A stretch of 64,000 nucleotides of DNA, from the NCBI RefSeq assembly GCF_024362525.1, contig NZ_CP101459.1:434001-498000 (forward strand), read 5' to 3'. Source of the DNA: Natrononativus amylolyticus (lineage in GTDB: Archaea > Halobacteriota > Halobacteria > Halobacteriales > Natrialbaceae). Positions within the stretch are counted from its first letter, which is position 1; every line of letters begins with the position of its first letter. Below the pieces are notes generated by a model that saw nothing but the letters and a program-made list of their open reading frames with translations, was not told the DNA's origin and made no database searches. The position numbers were made by a program, and so were the translations under genes. This document shows positions 38,515 to 52,357 of the stretch, in pieces.

Positions 38515-39174
38515 TCACACGACGAGTGCAACGCCGGCGATGGCCGCGCCCACGTAAACCGCGTGGTAGAGCAGCGTCGCCGTCGAAACGTGCAGCGTGT
38601 ATCGCGCCGTCGAGTACGAACTCACGGCCGCGGGAATCGCGATGAGTCCGCGACTCCAGGGAACGACGTTCGTGGCGAACACCGCCGCCCCACCGTACCG
38701 GTCGAACCACTGGTCGAGACGGCGATACCGATCCGACTGTTCGTCGACCTCGACGTACGGCAGTCGCTCGAGAAACGAGCGGTCGTAGCGCCTGACGCCG
38801 AGGTAGATCACCAGTTGGCCGAGGATGTGTGCGACGGTGACGAGGAGGACGATCGTTACCGCCTCGGATAGGCTGACCCTCGTTGCGATCACGTATCCAG
38901 GGAGGAACACGCTCGTTGGAAAGATCTTGCCGATGAGGGCGCCTTTCAGTACGAAGACGGCGAACAGGGCGGGGAGCCCAACCGTCTGAAGCGCAGTTTG
39001 CATGACGTCGACGAGTGCCGTTAACGGAGTGTGCATGGGGACCAGGTCGTGGATTTGCGGGAGGGGAGGTACCGTCGCCGAGACTCCCGACGAACCTGGT
39101 TCGTCGGTCGGTCGGCGGCGGTCGTTCAGCAGTCGTGGTGACGGTTCGATGCCGAATACCGTTTTGCTTACCAT
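38515..39174 (-). CDS. DedA family (VTT-domain) membrane protein
   Basis: A 219-aa integral membrane protein of the DedA/SNARE-associated type, which may flip or move phospholipids. Typical segments are KIFPTSVFLPGYVIATRVSL, then VAHILGQLVIYLGVRRYDRS and FDRYGGAAVFATNVVPWSRG, where F-x-R-F-x-P-x-x-R-x-x in the family is here partly altered. The start MVSKTVFGIE is decided by AAAATATATG about 27 nt upstream, which rules out the frame opening at 39192. Divergent from the DUF1611 gene. Confidence 0.86.
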   Translation of the reverse strand: MVSKTVFGIEPSPRLLNDRRRPTDEPGSSGVSATVPPLPQIHDLVPMHTPLTALVDVMQTALQTVGLPALFAVFVLKGALIGKIFPTSVFLPGYVIATRVSLSEAVTIVLLVTVAHILGQLVIYLGVRRYDRSFLERLPYVEVDEQSDRYRRLDQWFDRYGGAAVFATNVVPWSRGLIAIPAAVSSYSTARYTLHVSTATLLYHAVYVGAAIAGVALVV

Positions 39175-39328
39175 CCAGTTGTTGGTCAACACACATATAT
39201 TTTCTTAATCTATCACGACGTCACGACAGTGCGCTCCACTGTTGTCTCGTCGATTCTGATCAGTTTTCCGCCGACTGCCTCGAAGCGAAACTGGTATCGT
39301 TTTTTCCCTGGCCACGAAAGGGGCGGGT

Positions 39329-40448: not shown

Positions 40449-43400
40449 CTAGCCGAAGACGACGGAGATGACTCCGGAGGCGGCCGGCGGGATCACGGCG
40501 TTCCCGATGTCGATCGGCGGGATCACGGCGTGATTGTCGTCTTCGATCTCGATCTGTGCGTCGTCGGTCTCCTGGAGCGTCGACACCGAGTACTGGTAGG
40601 TTCCGGGCTCGGTGTCGGCGTCGATCGCGTGCGTCAGCGTGACGGTTTCGGACTCGCCACCCTCGAGGGTGATCGTCTGCATCGAGTCCGGACCGACGAC
40701 TTCACGGAGTTCTTCGGGTGGATACTCGTCGACTTCCTCGGCGGCACCGTCCCAGAAGAGGAAGATCGTCTGCTCGTCGGTCTCGTCGCCGGTGTTGGTG
40801 ATCGTGGCGTCGACGGCGAGGTCGTCGCCCGCCTGGGCGGACTCGGGGCCGTCGATCTCGCTGACTTCGAAGTACGCCGGTTCGGGATCGGCGGCGGCTT
40901 CGATGGTGATCGGCGCTGTTTCGACCTCGTCCGCGGAGACGCCGTGGAGCGAGTCGCCGGTCTCTTCGTCCTCGGGGATCTGGTAGGTGAACTCGACGGT
41001 CGTCGATTCACCGCCCTCGAGGGTCACCGTCTGCGCCTGTTCGGGTTCGTAGTCGATGACGTCGGTGCCGAAGTCGGTTCCGGGCGGGAAGTAGAACACC
41101 GTGCGGGTGTCTTCCTGCTCGCCGACGTTCGTGACCGTCGCGCTGACGGTGATCTCCTCGCCCTGCGCGGCGGAGTCCGGCGCTTCGAGATCGCTCACCT
41201 CGAAGTAGGTGCCGAGGGTGAGGTTCTCGGTGGTCGTCTCGCCTGGGTCGACGTCGACGAACGAGATGTGTGAGTCGTCGTAGCCGTCGGCGACCGCGCG
41301 CAGCGCGTGCGTGCCGGGGGTGACGTCCTCGATCTCGTAGTAGCCGTCGTCGTCGGTCGTCACGTTGAACGCGCCGTCGTCGGCGTCGAGGACGTGGGCG
41401 CCCTCGATGGGAACGCCGGCGGCGTTGGTGACGTAGCCGTCGATTGCACCGTCGGTGCGGTCGACCTCGAAGTCGACGCCCTCGACGTGTTCGCCGGGGC
41501 CGACGGAGACGATCTCGTCGGGCTGGTAGCCCGGCGGCACGTCCGCGACGTTCACGACGTACGTCCCTGGCGTGAGGTTCTCGAGGGTGTACGCGCCGTC
41601 GGCGTCGGTGGTCGCCTCGTAGACCTCCCCGACGTCGTTTTCGGCGACGATCGTGACGTTCTCGACGGGTGCGCCGTCGTCGCTGGCGGTCACCTCGCCG
41701 CTGATGGCGCCGGATTCGGTCTCGGCGTCGAGCCAGAAGTCCTGGGTGACGGTGTCGCCTTCGGGCACCTCGACGGTGTCGGTCTGGTCCTCGTAGCCGT
41801 CTGCGGTGACGGTGATCTCGTACTCGCCGGCGGGAACACCTTCGAGGGCGTACGCGCCGTCGTCGTCGGTGACGTCAGCGTACGTCTCGTTGTTCGCCTC
41901 GAGTTCGACGGTCGCGTTCTCGATCGGGTCGCCCGTGTCGTCGGCGTAGACCGTCCCGACGACGTCGCCGGTCGTCGCGTCTTCGATCGTCACCGGTGCG
42001 AGATCCTGGTCGTCCTCGCTGGCGACGATGTGGCTCGCGTCGCCGGCTTCTGCGTCTGCCGGCACGGTGTACGTGAAGGTGAGGTCCGCGCTCTCGCCCG
42101 GCTCGAGTTCGACGTACTCCGAGCTCTCGATCGCCTCGGCGTCGTGGGTGACGCTGCCGGTCGTCGCGTACTCGACGGCGTTGGCGAACAGCTGGTTACC
42201 GTCGTCGGTGAACGACTCCTCGTCGGTGAAGAAGTCACGGGCGATGGCCGTCGCCAGCACCTCCGTGCCGTCGTCGCTCACGGCGATCGACGGTCCTTCG
42301 TGGACGCCGTCGTCGCCGGCGGAGAAGTCGGCGTCCGCCAGCACGGTGCCGTCGTAGTCGTCGAACCACGCGCCCCACGTAGTGGAGCCCGAGTACACTT
42401 CGACGGTGTCACCCGCCGAGCCGACGCCCGCGAAGATCGGGTGATCCTCGTGGACGTCGATCGTGACGGGTTCGCCGTCGGTTGCGGTCGCGTCTTCGTC
42501 GCGCTCGCCGGGGTTCTCGCGCACGTTGTGCAGGCGGTAGACGCCGTCGGCGTACGCCTGGGCCGTGCCGCCCTGGTAGGAGTCCAGGTAGACTGCGCCC
42601 TGGTCGTCCTCGAGCGCGTCGAGGAAGTCCTCGGCGAGGTCGTCGCTGCCGAGACGCTGGACGACGAACGTGTCGTACTCGTCCATCGAGTCGAGCAGTT
42701 CGTCGGCCTCGAGTAGGTCGACCTCGTAGGCGTCCTCGTCGAGATGCGCCTCGAGGACGTCGACGAGCGCGCCGTCGTGGTAGTTCTCCTCGTCGACGAC
42801 GGCGACGTCGCCGCCGGCGGCGCCGAGGTCGTAGACGATCTCCTGGCCGTCCGGCGCGTCGCCGGTGTTCTCGACGGTGGCGTTCACGTCGTAGGTATCG
42901 CCGATACTCACCGTCTCGGGCGCGTCGGTGATCTCGACGTCGAACTGTGCCTCGAGGATCGTGACGGTGGTCGTCTGCGAGTCGTCCTCGGTGAAGACGC
43001 CGTGGTCGTACGTGCCTTCGCCGATGTCACTCGTGTCGAGGGTGAACTCGACGGTCGTCTCCTCGCCGGGGTCGAGCGTGACGTTCTCGGTGTGGACCGG
43101 CTCGTCCAGGTCGTCGAAGCGGTACTCGACGGTCTGGGTGTCGTCGGTGTTACCCGTGTTCTCGACGTCGGCGCTCACCTCGATCTCCTCGCCCCGGTCG
43201 GCCTCGTCGGGGGCCTCGAGGTTCGAGACGTCGAAGTGCGCCGAGACGATCGTCAACTCGTCCGTGTCGGAGTCGTCCTCTGAGTAGACGCCGTAGTGAT
43301 ACTCACCGGGTTCGAAGTCGCTCGTGTCGACTTCGAAGGTGATCGTCGTCTCCGCCGGGTGGTCGACCGGATCGTCGACGCCGGGGGCGGCCATGTCGAC

Positions 43401-45305
43401 GACTTCGGTGGCGACGGGTTCGCCCTCGCCCAGGTCGTCGGCACTGTCGTTCATGTAGAGGGCGATCTCCTGGATCGCACCCTCCTCGCCGAGGTTCTCG
43501 AGATCGACCGTGACCTCGAGCTCGTCGCCCTGGTCGACCTCGTCGGGACCGTCGAGGTTCGAGACGGCGATCTCGCCCTCGTCGAGGTTGCCCTGGACCT
43601 TGTACTGCAGCAGGTTGAGGTCGGTCGTGGTGATCTCGCCGTCGCGGTTCATGTCGCCGAGGTCCTCGTTGAAGTTCTCGGGCTCCATGTCCTGGAGGTA
43701 CTGCTGCATCAACTGGACGTCCTGGACGTTGACCGTCTCGTCCTGGTTGACGTCCCCGAGGTCGTACTCGAGGGCGCCGACGCCGACTTCGTCGACGGCG
43801 GCGTAGGCGTCGATGATGCCGTAGCCGTAGCGGACGTCCTTTTCGTCACCGGGTTCGTCCCAGTCGTCGGGTTTCCAGGCGGTCTCCTCGAGGGTGTCCT
43901 GGATCTCCTCGGCGGTGAGGTCGTCGTTGGCCGAGAGCATCAGCGCGATGGTGCCCGCGACGTGCGGGGCGGCCATCGAAGTGCCCGAGAGTGTGTCGTA
44001 CTCGTCGTCGGGCATCGCGCTCAGGACGTCCTCGCCGGGGGCGGAGACGTCCGGTTTGATCCACTCGTCGGGCCAGTCGGGGTCCGGGTTGTCCCAGTTG
44101 TCGCCCGCGATGGTGTTGCCGCTCGAGAAGTCGGTGATGTCGCCGTTCTCGTCGGAGGCGCCGATCGAGAACGAGTCGTAGATGTTCGCGGGCGAGCCCA
44201 CGCAGCCCTCCCCGGAGTTACCCGAGGAGGTGACCGCGAGGACGTCGAGATCGTGGGCGTTCTGGATGACCGGGATCCAGGCGTCCTCGTAGACGGGGCC
44301 GAACAGGCCGCAGCCGGCGCCGAAGCTCATGCTGACGACGTCTGTGTCCATCTCCTCGACGACGTACTCGAAGCCGGCGATCGTGTCCGAGTCGGCGCCG
44401 GAGCCGCCCGGCAACACGAGCGCGTGCTGGAGATCGACGTTCGGCGCGACCCCGTAGGCGGGAACGTCGCCGTCGGCGGGGGCGTTCGCCCCTACCGTGC
44501 CGCCGACGTGGGTGCCGTGGTAGTGGGTGTCGTAGGGTTCGGAGTCCTCGACGGGCTCACCGTCGGGGCCGATCTCGACCCAGCCACCCGGGTACGTCGG
44601 GTCGTCAGCGTCCTCGGTGTAGAGGTCGAGGTCCTGGTGGCTGACGTCGAAGCCGGTGTCGAGGACGGCGACTTTGACGTCCTCGCCCTGGGTCCCGAAG
44701 TCGTCCCAGGTGTCGGAGGCGTTGATCTGCTCTAACCCGTAGGTGAACTCACCGTCCTGAAAGATGCCGGGCGTCTCTTCTTCCTCGTCACCGACCGGCT
44801 CCGGAATCGTGTACTCCGGCCGGATTTGGATGGTGTGGACCCCCTCGATCGCCGAGAGCTCCTCGATGTCGACGGTGTCGGCGTCGACTTCGGCCCGGAT
44901 CGCGTTGGTGATCCAGTAGGTGTTGACGAGTTCGATGCCCTCGATGGCGGCGATCTCCTGGCGAGCGGTCGCCTGTGACTCCTCGGCGTACTCCTGGAGC
45001 TGGGCGATTGCGCGCTCGCGGTCGTCTGCGACGCCCTCGTCGTACTGATCGAAGATCAAGTAGACTTGCTCGGTCCCCTCCGCTTCCTCGAGGGCCGGGT
45101 CGACGTGTGTCTCGGTTTCCGACGTCTCCGCGTCGGTGCTCTCTTGCTGTACGGCTGGTTCGACATCGGGCGCCGGTTGCTGAGCCTCGATGTCTGCGTC
45201 TGCATCTGCGCTAGCGGTGACGCCGCCGGTCCCCATCGCAACGACCGACAGCACCATCACGAGCGCGAGGAGTGCAGCTCGAATCTGATCGCGTGTATCT
45301 GCCAT
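40449..45305 (-). CDS. Giant secreted multidomain subtilisin-like protease (S8), 1618 aa
   Basis: A signal sequence (residues 1-31; LLALVMVLSVVAMGTGGVTA) is followed by an acidic linker, an I9-like propeptide (~80-165) and the S8 catalytic domain (~195-505). The triad is Asp216 (AVLDTGFD), His266 (GTHVGG) and Ser443 (GTSMAAPHVAG), with the oxyanion Asn363. Next are a type I dockerin (~514-576; two loops DVNQDETVNVQD and DMNRDGEITTTD), CARDB-like beta domains (~580-810, 1400-1600), an inserted flavodoxin-like ThuA/GATase-type region (~850-1060) and three carboxypeptidase-regulatory-like domains (~1130-1390). There is no PGF-CTERM sorting signal. It ends NAVIPPAASGVISVVFG. It is probably released or held by its repeats. 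It has its own promoter. Confidence 0.92.
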   Translation of the reverse strand: MADTRDQIRAALLALVMVLSVVAMGTGGVTASADADADIEAQQPAPDVEPAVQQESTDAETSETETHVDPALEEAEGTEQVYLIFDQYDEGVADDRERAIAQLQEYAEESQATARQEIAAIEGIELVNTYWITNAIRAEVDADTVDIEELSAIEGVHTIQIRPEYTIPEPVGDEEEETPGIFQDGEFTYGLEQINASDTWDDFGTQGEDVKVAVLDTGFDVSHQDLDLYTEDADDPTYPGGWVEIGPDGEPVEDSEPYDTHYHGTHVGGTVGANAPADGDVPAYGVAPNVDLQHALVLPGGSGADSDTIAGFEYVVEEMDTDVVSMSFGAGCGLFGPVYEDAWIPVIQNAHDLDVLAVTSSGNSGEGCVGSPANIYDSFSIGASDENGDITDFSSGNTIAGDNWDNPDPDWPDEWIKPDVSAPGEDVLSAMPDDEYDTLSGTSMAAPHVAGTIALMLSANDDLTAEEIQDTLEETAWKPDDWDEPGDEKDVRYGYGIIDAYAAVDEVGVGALEYDLGDVNQDETVNVQDVQLMQQYLQDMEPENFNEDLGDMNRDGEITTTDLNLLQYKVQGNLDEGEIAVSNLDGPDEVDQGDELEVTVDLENLGEEGAIQEIALYMNDSADDLGEGEPVATEVVDMAAPGVDDPVDHPAETTITFEVDTSDFEPGEYHYGVYSEDDSDTDELTIVSAHFDVSNLEAPDEADRGEEIEVSADVENTGNTDDTQTVEYRFDDLDEPVHTENVTLDPGEETTVEFTLDTSDIGEGTYDHGVFTEDDSQTTTVTILEAQFDVEITDAPETVSIGDTYDVNATVENTGDAPDGQEIVYDLGAAGGDVAVVDEENYHDGALVDVLEAHLDEDAYEVDLLEADELLDSMDEYDTFVVQRLGSDDLAEDFLDALEDDQGAVYLDSYQGGTAQAYADGVYRLHNVRENPGERDEDATATDGEPVTIDVHEDHPIFAGVGSAGDTVEVYSGSTTWGAWFDDYDGTVLADADFSAGDDGVHEGPSIAVSDDGTEVLATAIARDFFTDEESFTDDGNQLFANAVEYATTGSVTHDAEAIESSEYVELEPGESADLTFTYTVPADAEAGDASHIVASEDDQDLAPVTIEDATTGDVVGTVYADDTGDPIENATVELEANNETYADVTDDDGAYALEGVPAGEYEITVTADGYEDQTDTVEVPEGDTVTQDFWLDAETESGAISGEVTASDDGAPVENVTIVAENDVGEVYEATTDADGAYTLENLTPGTYVVNVADVPPGYQPDEIVSVGPGEHVEGVDFEVDRTDGAIDGYVTNAAGVPIEGAHVLDADDGAFNVTTDDDGYYEIEDVTPGTHALRAVADGYDDSHISFVDVDPGETTTENLTLGTYFEVSDLEAPDSAAQGEEITVSATVTNVGEQEDTRTVFYFPPGTDFGTDVIDYEPEQAQTVTLEGGESTTVEFTYQIPEDEETGDSLHGVSADEVETAPITIEAAADPEPAYFEVSEIDGPESAQAGDDLAVDATITNTGDETDEQTIFLFWDGAAEEVDEYPPEELREVVGPDSMQTITLEGGESETVTLTHAIDADTEPGTYQYSVSTLQETDDAQIEIEDDNHAVIPPIDIGNAVIPPAASGVISVVFG

Positions 45306-47040: not shown

Positions 47041-48282
47041 TCACTGCTTCGTCCCCGGCAAGCCGAGATGATATAGCCGGTCCGTCAGGGGACGCAAATC
47101 AAGTATTCTCCCTTTCGATGAGAGGCCGGCGGCCATCGCCAGCGCCGTGAACACCATATACGTGTGTGTGATCGAATACGAAATCGAGAACGTAAAGAGA
47201 AGGTATGCGCTGATCAAGCCGAGCGCCAGTACGGGCGCTGTCGGTGTTTCGAAAAACGCGTAAAGGTACTCCACGACCAATATCGAAACACCGGCGAAAA
47301 ACAGTACTCCTGCGATTACGCCACCGGCGAACGCGGCGTGGAGGAAGAGGTTGTGGGGATACGAGTGTACTGAGATCTGATCGAACGCGCCCAGACCGTG
47401 GCCCAACGGTGTACTGAGGATCCTCTCGACGGTTGTGGCGTAGAGTTCGAACCGTCCGAGCGACGTGATGTCGGTGAACAGTGAGGTCATCCGATCGACG
47501 AACAACCGCGAGACAAATCCCAGTCGGATCAACACCAAAAGCGCACCGATACCGATACCGAGGGCTGCCGTCGCTCGAACGAGGGTTCGGACCGCCAGTT
47601 CGCGGGAGCGAGTGAGCGAAATCAGGATCACTGCGAGGACGGTCGCACCAAACAGGCCGACGTACGCACTCCGTCCGTGCTGACTAACGAGCGCCGGAAG
47701 CCCGATCGCTGGCGCTCCAATCAACCCGAATCGCTGCCATCGTGCAAGCGTTACCGTCGGGTGAACGAGATAGCCGATAACGACACACAAGCCCAGCGCA
47801 ATGGGAACGCTGACAGTGTTGTAGTGGTAGACGTCGTGTCCGCGTGGGTCGGCCACGCCGAGAAGCAGGGTCGCACTCACGAACGCTGCCCAAACGACCT
47901 GGAAGGCGAGATAGAGTCGGATTTCGCTGCGTCGGGTAACACCGAGCAGAGCCAGTGTTGTCCCGAGTATCAGCAGTAAGCTTACGACGTTATCGATGCT
48001 CGCTGTCGTTCCAGTTCGTATTCCGAGATACTCCGGGACAACGATCAACACGAACGCGACTCCGATCATCCCTGCTGCGATACCCTGTCGGTCCGTGAGT
48101 TCGTAGCTGCCGCGGGTGAGGCGTAGAGTGAACACTCCCCCGATCAATCCGAATGCGAGGACGTTGATATACGGGCCCTGTACGGTGAATATTTTTACGC
48201 TGGGCGCGTTGATGAACAGGAAGACACCCGCTATGAGAGCCCAAGTGAGCGGTTGGTCGCGCACTGCCCGAGAGAGATGCAC
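47041..48282 (-). CDS. O-antigen ligase/polymerase-like membrane protein (Wzy_C type)
   Basis: A 413-aa membrane protein with ten to twelve helices. The family's conserved extracytoplasmic region is visible, SQHGRSAYVGLFGATVLAVI in the middle and STPLGHGLGAFDQISVHSYP followed by HNLFLHAAFAGG towards the end, including the conserved Arg and His residues. These proteins polymerise or ligate lipid-linked glycans at the outer face of the membrane. It faces away from the plus-strand genes for a ParB-like protein and a flippase, which together look like part of an exopolysaccharide or S-layer glycan locus. Its short C-terminal tail ends in LPGTKQ. Confidence 0.84.
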   Translation of the reverse strand: MHLSRAVRDQPLTWALIAGVFLFINAPSVKIFTVQGPYINVLAFGLIGGVFTLRLTRGSYELTDRQGIAAGMIGVAFVLIVVPEYLGIRTGTTASIDNVVSLLLILGTTLALLGVTRRSEIRLYLAFQVVWAAFVSATLLLGVADPRGHDVYHYNTVSVPIALGLCVVIGYLVHPTVTLARWQRFGLIGAPAIGLPALVSQHGRSAYVGLFGATVLAVILISLTRSRELAVRTLVRATAALGIGIGALLVLIRLGFVSRLFVDRMTSLFTDITSLGRFELYATTVERILSTPLGHGLGAFDQISVHSYPHNLFLHAAFAGGVIAGVLFFAGVSILVVEYLYAFFETPTAPVLALGLISAYLLFTFSISYSITHTYMVFTALAMAAGLSSKGRILDLRPLTDRLYHLGLPGTKQ

Positions 48283-48376
48283 ACGTGAGTGTCTTGGCTG
48301 TGCGTCAATAAAGTAGCGAATGTCGTTTCAGAATCCGGCGATTTATGTGCAATACCAACGATTGACAGTTAACTAA

Positions 48377-49216
48377 ATGATGGCATCTCGGGTTTCTGCG
48401 GTGGTGTTGCCGGCATCAGTGGTGGATGCGATTCAGATTTACCGGCGCCAGGGCGCTCGCGAGTTCGCCTGGCGCGTTGGTGCCAAAGTTCTCGTCGATC
48501 ACCCTTACTCACCGACTGTCGCTCAGGCTGCCGGTGAGGCGTTCTACCGATCGGCACGGACGACGGATATCGAACGCTACGACTCGACGATCGATCCGTA
48601 CGAACTCCACCCCGTCAATCCCGCCGACATAACACATCTCACCGGGCGGGCGTATCCGCCGTGGAAGGGATGGCGAACCCGGGTCGGGTCGGTGAGGGGG
48701 GGTGAGTGGGATTGTCCCCCCTCGCTCGAGGAACTTCCGATGAGTCCGCTGTATCGAGGTTCTGATCCGGCGTTCTACTATCGTCCGCGTTTCGAGGAGA
48801 CGCCGTTACACCGGGCGCTCGTCGCACGCTTCGAAGACAAAACGCCCTGGACGGAAATCGAGTTAATCCAGCAGTTTATCTCGAGTCTCGAGGCCGGCGA
48901 ATGTGACTCCGTCTGGAATGGCTGTTCATCTCGAGACGACATCCTTCGAAAAGGGGCGAATCTCGATCGGTTATTCGCATCGATTCGCGACACGGGGTAC
49001 CGAACACAGGCTGATCTCGCCTCGGGACGGCAACGGTGGTTTCTTTCGAACCTCGGAAACGAGATCCGCGTCGACGTGGGTCGCACCGGCGAGTTCCTGT
49101 TCGTCGAGGGCCGTCATCGACTCTCGATTGCGAAGATTCTCGACCTCGAGTCCGTTCCCGTCCTCATCTCGGTTCGTCACAGACGGTGGGTCGAATCGAC
49201 CTTCGGAGATCAATAG
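48377..49216 (+). CDS. ParB-like domain protein in a polysaccharide locus
   Basis: A 279-aa soluble protein. The N-terminal two-thirds lack a known domain but contain HPYSPTVAQAAGEAFYRSAR and GGEWDCPPSLEELPMSPLYR. The C-terminal portion (about 225-270) matches a ParB/Srx-like nuclease fold, VDVGRTGEFLFVEGRHRLSI followed by AKILDLESVPVLISVRH, with the conserved G-R-H-R. In haloarchaea and bacteria similar proteins sit in cell-surface glycan loci, where their biochemical role is not known. It precedes the flippase gene by 32 bp, so the two are co-transcribed. No ParA partner is here, so a partition role is unlikely. Confidence 0.75.
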   Translation: MMASRVSAVVLPASVVDAIQIYRRQGAREFAWRVGAKVLVDHPYSPTVAQAAGEAFYRSARTTDIERYDSTIDPYELHPVNPADITHLTGRAYPPWKGWRTRVGSVRGGEWDCPPSLEELPMSPLYRGSDPAFYYRPRFEETPLHRALVARFEDKTPWTEIELIQQFISSLEAGECDSVWNGCSSRDDILRKGANLDRLFASIRDTGYRTQADLASGRQRWFLSNLGNEIRVDVGRTGEFLFVEGRHRLSIAKILDLESVPVLISVRHRRWVESTFGDQ

Positions 49217-49248
49217 ATACATAGCGCCCTCTCGGCTGGTATCAGTAG

Positions 49249-50715
49249 ATGTCGCTCTCTGAGAAGATCGCGTCGGGATTTCGAGCGGACCTTCTCACTC
49301 GAATCGTTCAGGTTCTCGCCGGCGGCCTCTTGACCGTTGCACTCGCGCGATTACTCGGCGCAGACGCCTACGGGCTGTTGTTCTTTGCGATCTCCTTTTT
49401 CTCGATGGTCACTCTCTTAGGGAACCTCGGAACCGCCCGATCAGCAGCCCGGTACATCAGCGAATACGAACAGACAGACACCTCCCAGATTCGCCACATC
49501 CTTCGCTATGCGGCGTTCATCAATGCGGTTACGATCGGGATCGTCTCGATCGTCCTCGTCGTGTTCCGCTCCGAGATAGCCGTCCTCCTCGATGAGCCAG
49601 GCCTCGAGCCGTTTCTTGTCCTCGGTGTCGCGTACGTCGTTTCCGCCGGTATTCTGGGTTTTTCGCGTCGAACACTGCAGGGGTTTCGTCGAATCGAACA
49701 CAGTGCCCTCACCACGGGTCTCGATGGTATTGCACGGCCGGTTCTCGCGATCGGTGCGGTCCTCTTGGGATTCAACGCCATCGGTGCGTTCGTGGGGTAC
49801 ATCTTGAGTGCAATGCTGGCTGGGATAGTCGGCGTCATCTTGCTGGTTCGCTCTGCGGGACGGTATGAGCTCGCAACGTCCGTCGATCCCGGACTCGGCC
49901 GGCGGATTCTCGAGTACTCACTCCCACTCTCGCTTACGACCAGCAGCGACGTGCTCATCAAACACGTCGATACGGTTCTGATCGGCGCGCTCCTGACGCC
50001 GTTTGCGGTCAGCCAGTACGTCGTTGGCAAACAGATCATCCACTTCGCTCAGAAACCAGCGGAGTCGCTCGGCTTCACTGTCGCCCCCCGTTTCTCAGAA
50101 CAGTGTGCCAAAGGGAACCGCGAGAAAGCATCCGAACTGTACGCGACCTCCTTGCGGAACGTGTTTCTCCTGTACATCCCTGCTGCACTCGGATTGATCG
50201 CCGTCGCCGGTCCACTGGTGGTAACGGTATTCGGTGCCGAGTACGCCGGCGGTGAAATAGTTGTCCAGCTCCTCGCTATTTATCTCGTCGCTCAGACGGT
50301 CACGTTCGTGACCAGCAGCGGGCTCGATTATCTCGGGAAGGCAAAACTGCGCGCGATCGTTAAAGGCGGTGTCGCACTGGTGAACTTCGGGTTGAACCTC
50401 CTGTTGATCCCGCGATACGGCGTTGCGGGTGCGGCGGTGGCGACTGCGGGCTCCTATAGCGTCTATGCGGCCCTCAACGTGTTTCTAATGAATCGAGAGC
50501 TCTCGATTCCCTGGCAGCGAGTCGCGTTCAACGTCGCTCACATTACGGCGGTGTCGGGTGCGATGTTCGTCGTAATTTTCCCCCTCTCGAGACAGATATC
50601 GGGACTCGTCTCACTGATCAGTGTCGTCGCTCTCGGTGTCGGTATCTGGGGTGGGTTGTGCCTTCTCACCGGGCTCGTTGAGCCCGATAATCTCCGTACT
50701 GCAGTCGGTCGCTAA
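49249..50715 (+). CDS. Wzx-like polysaccharide flippase
   Basis: A 488-aa MATE/MOP-superfamily membrane protein with 14 predicted helices, the expected length for Wzx/PST exporters. The N-terminal FRADLLTRIVQVLAGGLLTV then LLGADAYGLLFFAISFFSMV is typical, as is LLIPRYGVAGAAVATAGSYS near residue 385. It moves lipid-linked saccharide units across the membrane. It follows the ParB-like gene on the same strand (32 bp), and the ATP-grasp gene is convergent with it. No glycosyltransferase is found within the module, so the repeat-unit biosynthesis genes must be elsewhere. Confidence 0.9.
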   Translation: MSLSEKIASGFRADLLTRIVQVLAGGLLTVALARLLGADAYGLLFFAISFFSMVTLLGNLGTARSAARYISEYEQTDTSQIRHILRYAAFINAVTIGIVSIVLVVFRSEIAVLLDEPGLEPFLVLGVAYVVSAGILGFSRRTLQGFRRIEHSALTTGLDGIARPVLAIGAVLLGFNAIGAFVGYILSAMLAGIVGVILLVRSAGRYELATSVDPGLGRRILEYSLPLSLTTSSDVLIKHVDTVLIGALLTPFAVSQYVVGKQIIHFAQKPAESLGFTVAPRFSEQCAKGNREKASELYATSLRNVFLLYIPAALGLIAVAGPLVVTVFGAEYAGGEIVVQLLAIYLVAQTVTFVTSSGLDYLGKAKLRAIVKGGVALVNFGLNLLLIPRYGVAGAAVATAGSYSVYAALNVFLMNRELSIPWQRVAFNVAHITAVSGAMFVVIFPLSRQISGLVSLISVVALGVGIWGGLCLLTGLVEPDNLRTAVGR

Positions 50716-50759
50716 TACACTAGTCGACCGTGACGCCCCGAAGCCGTCCCACTTCGGTC

Positions 50760-51854
50760 CTAGATGACCCCGTGATAGTCGAAGAACTCCCGAACACGTG
50801 TGTCCGTGAGAAACGGCTCGTGAATCTGCATCATCTCGTGTGTCGGGCGGATGTTTCCCTCGAGTACCGCATAGCCGTCCTCGGTGATGACGATATCCCA
50901 CCCGACCAGCGGCAGTTGCTGGAGGTGTGCTGCTATCGTCGTAATCTCCTCACGGAGACGGTCCCACCGTGGGATCGATATCCCGGTGATCGGAGCGCCA
51001 GTTTCGGGGTGGTCCTCGAGCCATCGAATCCCAGATGCCGTGTTCTGTGCGGCAGTGGTCATCGTTCCGGTTTCGATGTCGACATGGGCTGAAATCCCAC
51101 CCTTGTCCCAGTTGTCGACCGGTGCTGACGCCGCAACCCCGAACCGATGGATCGCTCGTGCTACGAACGGTTCCTGGGTTGTGACGTCGCGGAGGGTTAT
51201 CACTCGAATCGTATTCGTCGCGTCCGGGAAGATCGTCTCGGCGTACTCTGCCTGGTCGACGAACTCGTTGACCAGATAGGTCGTCTGCGAGCCAAATTGA
51301 TCGACCAGTGTAGTCAGTGACAGTTCCCTCCCGTTTACGACTGGGCCGTCGTCCGATCGTTCGAGAACGTACACGTTAGCACCTCCGACACCCGTAACCG
51401 GCTTGCACACGAGTCTCTCGTGACGGTGGAGCTGTTCTCGAAGCCAACCGACACAGTCGTCGGTGAGAACCGCTCCCGTTTCCGCTCGAACCGTCCCGTT
51501 GTGGATCACGCCATACACCGTCGGAATGGCGTCTTCGTAGCGGTCAGTGAGTATCTGGTGGAACGTGAGCTTGTTCATCGCGATTGCAGCATCCGAACCG
51601 GCTAACTGCCCCGGCGAGACCGCCCCCGAAAAATCGGGCAGATACGCGGACAAGTCGTACCGCTCGAGGTCGTAGTCTCGTGTCCGCGTCGAATGGAATC
51701 CGTTTCTGATCAGCGAGAGTCGCTGTGTATAGGGAATCCCGGCTGTCGGTTTCTGGCGCTCCCTGTACGCGAACCCCGCGAGCTGGGTGGCGATTACGGT
51801 CCACTTCTCGATAACCGACGCCACACGATGGTAGTTCCGTCGTAGTGGATCCAT
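50760..51854 (-). CDS. ATP-grasp protein of the sugar-transfer-associated type
   Basis: A 364-aa ATP-grasp enzyme. The nucleotide-binding elements are visible: LVCKPVTGVGGANVYVLERS (Lys and Gly-rich loop), VNEFVDQAEYAETIFPDATN, and the Mg site DIVITEDGYAVLEGNIRPT with the Glu-Gly-Asn. Related proteins (ATPgrasp_ST class) occur in capsule and teichuronic-type loci and presumably attach an amino acid or acyl group to a sugar; the chemistry is not established. The start MDPLRRNYHR is chosen because TTTATCAG lies about 27 nt upstream. An ATG 11 codons upstream (51887) is also possible. Convergent with the flippase gene. Confidence 0.82.
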   Translation of the reverse strand: MDPLRRNYHRVASVIEKWTVIATQLAGFAYRERQKPTAGIPYTQRLSLIRNGFHSTRTRDYDLERYDLSAYLPDFSGAVSPGQLAGSDAAIAMNKLTFHQILTDRYEDAIPTVYGVIHNGTVRAETGAVLTDDCVGWLREQLHRHERLVCKPVTGVGGANVYVLERSDDGPVVNGRELSLTTLVDQFGSQTTYLVNEFVDQAEYAETIFPDATNTIRVITLRDVTTQEPFVARAIHRFGVAASAPVDNWDKGGISAHVDIETGTMTTAAQNTASGIRWLEDHPETGAPITGISIPRWDRLREEITTIAAHLQQLPLVGWDIVITEDGYAVLEGNIRPTHEMMQIHEPFLTDTRVREFFDYHGVI

Positions 51855-52042
51855 TGACAGTCTCAGTATCGGAAGGCTGATAAACATCACGATTAACTTG
51901 TATATTCGTGTGCTAGTAGTTCGCCGGACGAACTCGCGGCCAGTACCCAATTATAGCCGAACCGGAAGTCCGTCGGCTGAGAGGTCTCGCGCGGTGCTGA
52001 TCGGTAGTTCACACACTGATGATTCATCTACGGGGATGGCGA

Positions 52043-52357
52043 TCACTCGTCGATGCTGATTTTCGTCTCCGTGACCCGTACCGCGTCCGCCTCCGCCCGG
52101 CGTTCTCGGTACCAGGTGTCGATCTCTTCGGCGATGATCTCGCCGATCTGCTCGCCGACTCGCCCCACGAGCGGGGAGGCGAACGCGATCACGAGCGTCG
52201 CGACGATCGGTTCGGCACCCGTCGTCTCCGCGGCCGGCGCCTCGAGAGTCGCGCGTTCGATCCCCTCGAACTCGGCTTCGAGGCGGTCGCGGAGGTGCTC
52301 GAGAAACGCCCGGTCGGGCGCCTCCACGCGAACTCGTTCGACTGCGAGTTCAGTCAT
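52043..52357 (-). CDS. Hypothetical protein, 104 aa
   Basis: A 104-aa acidic protein, starting MTELAVERVRVEAPDRAFLE. The first half has beta-alpha-beta character (AVERVRVEAPDRAFLEHLRD, then LEAEFEGIERATLEAP). The second half is a helix (VGRVGEQIGEIIAEEIDTWY) followed by a strand. No metal site, membrane segment or recognised motif. Found between the ATP-grasp gene and an aldo/keto reductase, 107 bp from the latter on the same strand. Codon choice is typical of a real gene. Function unknown. Confidence 0.7.
   Translation of the reverse strand: MTELAVERVRVEAPDRAFLEHLRDRLEAEFEGIERATLEAPAAETTGAEPIVATLVIAFASPLVGRVGEQIGEIIAEEIDTWYRERRAEADAVRVTETKISIDE

Follow-up and report, generated by a model that had tools for sequence, protein, structure and literature searches.

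A four-gene island with a ParB-like protein

The stretch of DNA analysed here (the window; 64,000 nt of Natrononativus amylolyticus, positions counted from its first letter) is part of a 768-kb replicon; the genome has three contigs and 3.99 Mb in total, and the named relatives of its proteins are haloarchaeal. A block of four genes at 47041-51950 encodes a Wzy_C-like protein, a ParB-like protein, a Wzx flippase and an ATP-grasp ligase. Our subject is the ParB-like protein, which belongs to a family tied to glycan assembly. The original prediction had read the block as a glycan module without glycosyltransferases, in which the ParB-like protein might be a nucleotide-dependent modifier of lipid-linked units, and all four genes are present as it claimed:

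47041..48282, minus strand: Wzy_C-like O-antigen polymerase/ligase membrane protein, 413 residues (PF04932, E 6.7e-9, 36.1 bits, cut-off 31.7)
48377..49216, plus strand: predicted ParB/sulfiredoxin (Srx)-fold protein, 279 residues, from a so far uncharacterised archaeal family of glycan loci (AlphaFold2, fold matches and family context)
49249..50715, plus strand: Wzx/MOP-family flippase, 488 residues (PF01943, E 1.6e-22, 80.7 bits, cut-off 28.2)
50760..51950, minus strand: sugar-transfer-associated ATP-grasp ligase (ATPgrasp_ST), 396 residues (PF14397, E 3.9e-38, 131.7 bits, cut-off 31.4)

The ParB-like protein was matched by no Pfam or NCBIfam model; the GRHRLSI motif noticed earlier is found at its residues 245-251. 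The GC content at third codon positions (GC3) is 0.66-0.69 in the four genes (0.68 in the Wzy_C-like gene) as opposed to 0.74-0.91 in ten flanking genes, and because of this shared low GC3 the four genes look like one acquired island. The low-GC3 island agrees with the previously proposed edges of 47041 and 51854, except that the open reading frame (ORF) of the ATP-grasp ligase starts at 51950; this ORF begins with TTG and its true start may be internal. The host genome has a second ATPgrasp_ST copy elsewhere. On the same strand, wzx follows the ParB-like gene after 32 bp, which makes their co-transcription probable.

Five glycosyltransferase references found no glycosyltransferase among the window ORFs, and the nearest genes with PF00535 and PF00534 domains on this replicon are about 447 kb and about 138 kb away, respectively. 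The absence of ParA was borne out as well, since no ParA-type Walker motif was detected in the ORFs of 54 family loci, window included.

Glycan genes as neighbours of the family

Ten genomes with few contigs and at least three family places each were chosen, and their neighbouring genes were not viewed beforehand, except in the host genome. The 50 family places found in them, some of which are fragments, were merged within 10 kb into 29 loci and compared with 5000 random draws; some contig sizes in this test are estimates. At least one gene for a GT2 or GT4 glycosyltransferase, Wzx or AglB was found within 5 kb of 22 of the 29 loci, the random mean being 1.91 and the maximum 7. Taken separately, Wzx was found within 5 kb of 10 loci (random mean 0.52), GT2 of 13 (0.93) and GT4 of 16 (0.88), and neither the combined count nor any of these three was reached in a single draw. 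AglB lies within 15 kb of 8 loci (random 0.29), one each in eight of the ten genomes and at distances of 4.0-12.2 kb, which places family copies close to the archaeal agl N-glycosylation clusters (as described in the accessible text of PMC4335974 and PMC5867893). In the remaining two genomes the nearest family locus is 49 and 142 kb from AglB. With one of these glycan genes so close to 22 of the 29 loci, the family is to be linked with glycan assembly, not with plasmid partition.

Of the four copies in the host genome, three have glycan genes nearby. Two paralogues form a convergent pair at C1:2203976-2205611, some 6 kb from AglB; this pair is flanked by UGD and GT2 genes and, on its other side, by GT4, GT2 and AglB. 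The window copy departs from such agl clusters, as it belongs to a different replicon and its island has neither glycosyltransferases nor AglB. The island resembles Wzx/Wzy polysaccharide loci in that Wzx and Wzy_C occur together, but differs from them in its lack of a detectable glycosyltransferase.

A second survey started from reference proteins and covered 53 loci of at least 6 kb, with neighbours counted within 8 kb. Wzx was near 22 loci, GT2 near 20, GT4 near 15, an ABC exporter and DUF1616 near 11 each, AglB near 10 and Gfo/Idh/MocA near 9; the AglB count is biased, since L085-L091 were included for their known proximity to AglB. In the 27 motif-scan loci (L038-L064), which were not so chosen, AglB occurs in 5 and any of GT2, GT4, GT61, Wzx and AglB in 14 (counted by hand). 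Pfam searches of the genes called around these 27 loci (83 and 76 neighbours) had GT2, ABC transporters, epimerases, GT4 and Wzx among the leading families.

The pairing with glycan genes is thus beyond chance, and Wzx recurs near the family as the neighbourhood comparison had been expected to reveal, but the exact set of Wzy, ParB-like, Wzx and ATP-grasp genes is not conserved. ATPgrasp_ST lies within 5 kb of 2 of the 29 loci (random 0.11; 28 of 5000 draws as high), and when the Wzy_C and ATP-grasp proteins of the window served as references for the 53 loci, the window itself was the only one with a match near a family gene; a conserved four-gene module was therefore rejected. Likewise, the arrangement without glycosyltransferases is true of this island but peculiar to it, as many relatives adjoin glycosyltransferases.

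Could the protein be a true partition ParB of a plasmid or chromosome that lies here by chance? It has a GRHRL motif and the predicted ParB fold, and some family members sit on megaplasmids. The ORFs of the 54 loci are, however, free of ParA motifs, PF02195 matched 0 of 39 members at E<=1 and TIGR00180 0 of 37 at E<=0.1, and the neighbours are glycan genes. No partition context was seen, the outcome that would have counted against the original prediction being homologues mostly in plasmid-partition loci, and on context and motifs we reject this explanation, to which we give virtually no weight.

A role as transcriptional regulator of glycan clusters also has to be considered, given that SbnI and other ParB-family proteins can regulate (according to the available part of PMC9641203). 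Yet Pfam searches of the window proteins and 39 members matched no helix-turn-helix (HTH) or dimerisation domain, the host's four copies are divergent with three of them near glycan genes, and the spacing of family genes to biosynthetic genes is operon-like in several loci; we regard regulation as very improbable.

Recurrent gene arrangements

Eight loci (L066, L069, L071, L079-L083) have a common set of genes, i.e. GT4, a large unassigned protein, a Wzx of the window type, an SDR epimerase, the ParB-like gene and Gfo/Idh/MocA, and seven of them also carry DUF1616. The distance from Gfo/Idh/MocA to the ParB-like gene is 7-23 bp in seven of the eight, and in L082 the called ORFs overlap. The window Wzx scores 301-322 bits against the flippases of the five syntenic clusters L079-L083, which also carry the ParB-like gene. 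As the ParB-like gene and a window-type Wzx occur together in eight loci, the link between the two genes of the window recurs, and with the same kind of flippase.

Some neighbours would act on phosphate esters. In L079, L080 and L083 the family gene has a phosphodiesterase-type gene at a distance of 34-112 bp (with PF01663 confirmed in L080 and in the L071 reference), PAP2 phosphatase genes are close to members in L068 and L008, and in two different genomes the family gene overlaps a CDP-alcohol phosphatidyltransferase gene (L057, 9833-11433; L084, 8875-10865). Such neighbours are consistent with an accessory enzyme, e.g. one that prepares the donor, serving alkaline-phosphatase-superfamily transferases in the sulfation or phospho-decoration of glycans. 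By analogy, alkaline-phosphatase-domain proteins of the Halobacterium AglB cluster have been shown to be glycan sulfotransferases (PMC11980604, in the part available). Many loci, the window included, lack such a gene, and we consider this explanation quite unlikely.

Two other regularities did not survive inspection. An alkaline-phosphatase neighbour that seemed to be shared by 14 loci was rejected, because its members are GT2 proteins that a fused ORF had linked into one cluster. We also rejected the idea that each locus strictly pairs two paralogue types, since one of each loop length is present in only some multi-copy loci. A tally of alkaline-phosphatase-type neighbours from the survey of 53 loci was set aside, as it lumps PF01663 proteins confirmed by Pfam together with unassigned ORFs and a self-hit. 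Convergent pairs of divergent paralogues are frequent among the family genes (L007, 8971-10612; L043; L045; L046; L088). In L039 (10792-12423) and L044 (10837-12408) the end of the family gene is overlapped by an ORF that has GT2 as its C-terminal domain and whose N-terminal half is unassigned.

Extent of the family

Relatives were found in 98 of 293 genomes of the host's order (protein search, E<=1e-5), and a profile search of 294 genomes sampled from the phylum found them in 19, of which 16 belong to the host's order. In the plasmid collection 15 of 72,556 records have a family match, all of them haloarchaeal, and these plasmid-borne members are annotated as hypothetical proteins or not at all. 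A strict-motif scan of a genome collection (84,980 species according to the description of the tool) yielded 27 loci, of which 26 are haloarchaeal and one is lokiarchaeal; no bacterial member was found in this single scan, in which bacteria were not searched thoroughly. There was no relative in the phage collection or among viral contigs, and a viral origin was rejected on these grounds.

A tree of 68 rows consists of deep, poorly resolved subfamilies with long branches and places the copies of the host genome in different clades. The family is thus large, old, divergent, multi-copy and mainly haloarchaeal. In one genome (G036, C2:416345-423166) members and fragments are clustered within 7 kb, which suggests local duplication and decay. 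The lokiarchaeal locus (L059, 9788-12500) has two tandem members near a UDP-GlcNAc 2-epimerase gene; both carry a fused C-terminal methyltransferase-like domain (Methyltransf_23, E 1.4e-4 and 2.7e-5, below the Pfam cut-off).

A predicted split ParB/Srx fold

AlphaFold2 models were obtained for the window protein (37 sequences; pLDDT 87.9, pTM 0.83) and for a second member of the family (32 sequences; pLDDT 84.2, pTM 0.84). ParB, Noc, KorB, sulfiredoxin, SbnI or SerK account for 31 of the 35 structural matches of the first model (best Z 5.2) and for 26 of the 35 of the second (best Z 4.9), and we tentatively assign the ParB/Srx fold because the labels of these matches agree, not because of their score. 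The matched ranges span approximately residues 70-275, yet only about 77-93 residues are aligned in most matches, so the fold appears to be split, and the inserted part is largely without counterpart in the matched structures, although we make no claim of novelty for it. The models thus suggest a ParB/Srx fold divided by an insertion of about 100 residues that carries an invariant GxWD motif. The predicted elements of the window protein are as follows:

48593..48643, plus strand: first strand pair of the split ParB/Srx fold, residues 73-89 (strands 77-80 and 85-88, AlphaFold2)
48686..48928, plus strand: mostly helical insertion, approximately residues 104-184, with invariant G109-x-W111-D112 and W158
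49082..49183, plus strand: residues 236-269, with an RxG turn, the GxHR phosphate-type motif (245-248) and a strand ending in R267-H268

The N-terminal two-thirds, previously left unassigned, are modelled as a helical N-terminus followed by the first strand pair and the insertion.

Conservation was read from two family alignments, A1 with 39 rows and A3 with 37 rows. G109, W111, D112, W158, R236, G238, R267 and H268 are invariant in both, and P82 is nearly so (37 of 37 and 37 of 39 rows). The GxxR phosphate motif, which is Box II of the ParB/Srx superfamily (PMC12704722, available text), is present in 38 of 39 rows of A1 and 35 of 37 rows of A3. The loop reads GxHR in 33 of 39 and 30 of 37 rows and GxNR in 5 and 5, while GERR occurs in 0 of 39 and 0 of 37 rows. 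PHROGs searches with 39 members found several ParB-like families, all matched weakly (the best ParB-named family with more than one member reached 0.0015).

Possible function

The family shares its predicted core fold with the canonical ParB, Noc and KorB CTPases, but it differs from them in having neither a PF02195 or TIGR00180 match, nor GERR, nor a ParA nearby. Among the closest known proteins are the free L-serine kinases SbnI and SerK (the latter described in PMC5120207, part of which was available), with which it has in common the predicted ParB/Srx fold, a DGxHR-type loop and the lack of a matching HTH. These two are also the only ParB-fold NCBIfam models that match any members: of 37 members searched, 2 matched SbnI (best E 3.6e-4) and 3 matched SerK (best E 0.0047), values that are weak and uncorrected for the number of members. 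A profile search aligns the family loop with DGVHR of SbnI (E 0.25); the loop is DGHHR in the SerK-type protein of P. furiosus and GERR in Spo0J. To judge by these motifs, the phosphate loop of the family resembles those of SbnI and SerK and not the GERR of ParB. There are also differences, since SbnI and SerK belong to siderophore or cysteine synthesis whereas the family belongs to glycan loci, and only the family has the insertion of about 100 residues with GxWD. Sulfiredoxin, which is among the top structural matches, has the fold that our models predict and an HR pair in its loop (GCHR). The family protein is, however, longer, and Cys at the catalytic position of sulfiredoxin occurs in 0 of the 39 and 0 of the 37 rows.

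The family's context, predicted fold and conserved residues lead us to infer that it binds a nucleotide, what chemistry it carries out on which substrate and how the steps proposed here are ordered, the catalytic step being an argument by analogy. We favour, with a probability of roughly 0.45, the reading that these are ParB/Srx-fold proteins of surface-glycan assembly, including AglB clusters, which bind an NTP (nucleoside triphosphate) or ADP and transfer a group onto a glycan, sugar-phosphate or lipid-linked substrate. Its parts are not equally firm: the glycan role is very probable, binding of an NTP is rather probable, and phosphotransfer is no better than tentative. The nucleotide-dependent activity of the original prediction is accordingly plausible in the light of the predicted fold and the GxHR motif.

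In the scheme that we propose, NTP (or ADP) would be bound by the split ParB fold, i.e. by the strand pair 77-88, the GxHR loop 245-248 and R267/H268, while the inserted GxWD element would hold the substrate, be it a glycan, a sugar-phosphate or a lipid-linked compound. This substrate would then receive a phosphoryl or related group at the cytoplasmic face, before Wzx exports the unit. As for the island, Wzx would export, Wzy_C would polymerise or ligate, the ATP-grasp ligase might add a carboxylate-linked group, and the sugars of the product would be added by glycosyltransferases encoded elsewhere in the genome. We favour group transfer because the invariant polar and aromatic residues lie in loop motifs and in the insertion, because the loop is of the SbnI/SerK kind and some neighbours handle phosphate esters, and because the family diversifies like enzymes with different substrates. 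The placement of the host's copies in different clades is what one may expect of enzymes diversified by substrate. We further speculate that these proteins form a new class of ParB/Srx-fold transferases that decorate archaeal N-glycans, surface polysaccharides or lipid carriers, in which GxWD replaces the catalytic pair of SbnI and SerK, but we consider this doubtful.

Several points weigh against group transfer in glycan assembly. Six of the 29 loci are without any tested glycan gene within 10 kb. The structural Z-scores are low (5.2 at best), the Foldseek E-values are all above 0.04 (best 0.042), and the sequence scores to SbnI and SerK are weak. The kinase activity of SbnI needs Glu20 and Asp58 (PMC9641203, available part); the family position aligned with Asp58 (244) holds Asp in no more than 17 of 39 and 15 of 37 rows, the window protein having Glu there, and a counterpart of Glu20 was not identified, a structural alignment at residue level not having been available. 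Finally, the accessible text of a 2025 survey of the ParB fold (PMC12704722) states that neither sequence nor AlphaFold3 allows nucleotide specificity to be predicted.

The main rival to group transfer is a nucleotide-binding switch or scaffold without sugar chemistry, in which NTP binding would alter the shape of the protein and gate a complex of flippase, polymerase or glycosyltransferase, much as ParB clamps respond to CTP. In its favour, switching by NTP is established for the ParB fold, and binding of CTP, ATP or GTP is known from orphan ParB-like proteins (same survey, available text); in addition, the catalytic Asp of the kinase is not conserved in the family, and the convergent or tandem paralogue pairs at one locus could be heterodimers. 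A switch of this type is harder to reconcile with the lack of a matched HTH or dimerisation domain and with GxHR standing in place of GERR, and both the invariant Trp-Asp insertion and the methyltransferase-like fusion look enzymatic. We hold it to be unlikely, although less so than the accessory enzyme discussed above.

Relation to published work

The 2025 survey covered the ParB-CTPase fold with PF02195 at the gathering cut-off together with TIGR00180 (PMC12704722, accessible text). As none of 39 members has a PF02195 match, the present family would, to judge from these searches, fall outside it. The word ParB is absent from the available text of PMC5867893 and PMC11980604, and with ParB and glycan terms we found no paper on such a family in the open literature. 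We thus have a predicted ParB-fold variant in a glycan context that we did not find described there.

Archaeal N-glycosylation and surface-polysaccharide clusters contain many genes without an assigned step. A multi-copy family that is present in about one third of the sampled genomes of the order, lies near AglB in eight of ten genomes and is nameless in the libraries searched would extend the ParB fold into glycan biology, and it opens a missing glycan step to tests by gene deletion and by mass spectrometry of glycans. If the new transferase class is real, the ParB fold gains a role in glycan chemistry.

Other genes of the window

Three genes around the island deserve mention. A VTT/DedA protein at 38515-39192 (minus strand), about 8 kb from the island, resembles UptA undecaprenyl-phosphate transporters (E 6e-11, below the cut-off) and is possibly involved in recycling of the lipid carrier. 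A protein of 104 residues at 52043-52357 (minus strand) adjoins the island and has a sub-threshold match to EACC1 (E 0.013). The subtilase at 40449-45305 (minus strand), 1618 residues long, contains a dockerin type I domain, CARDB and three carboxypeptidase-regulatory-like stretches.

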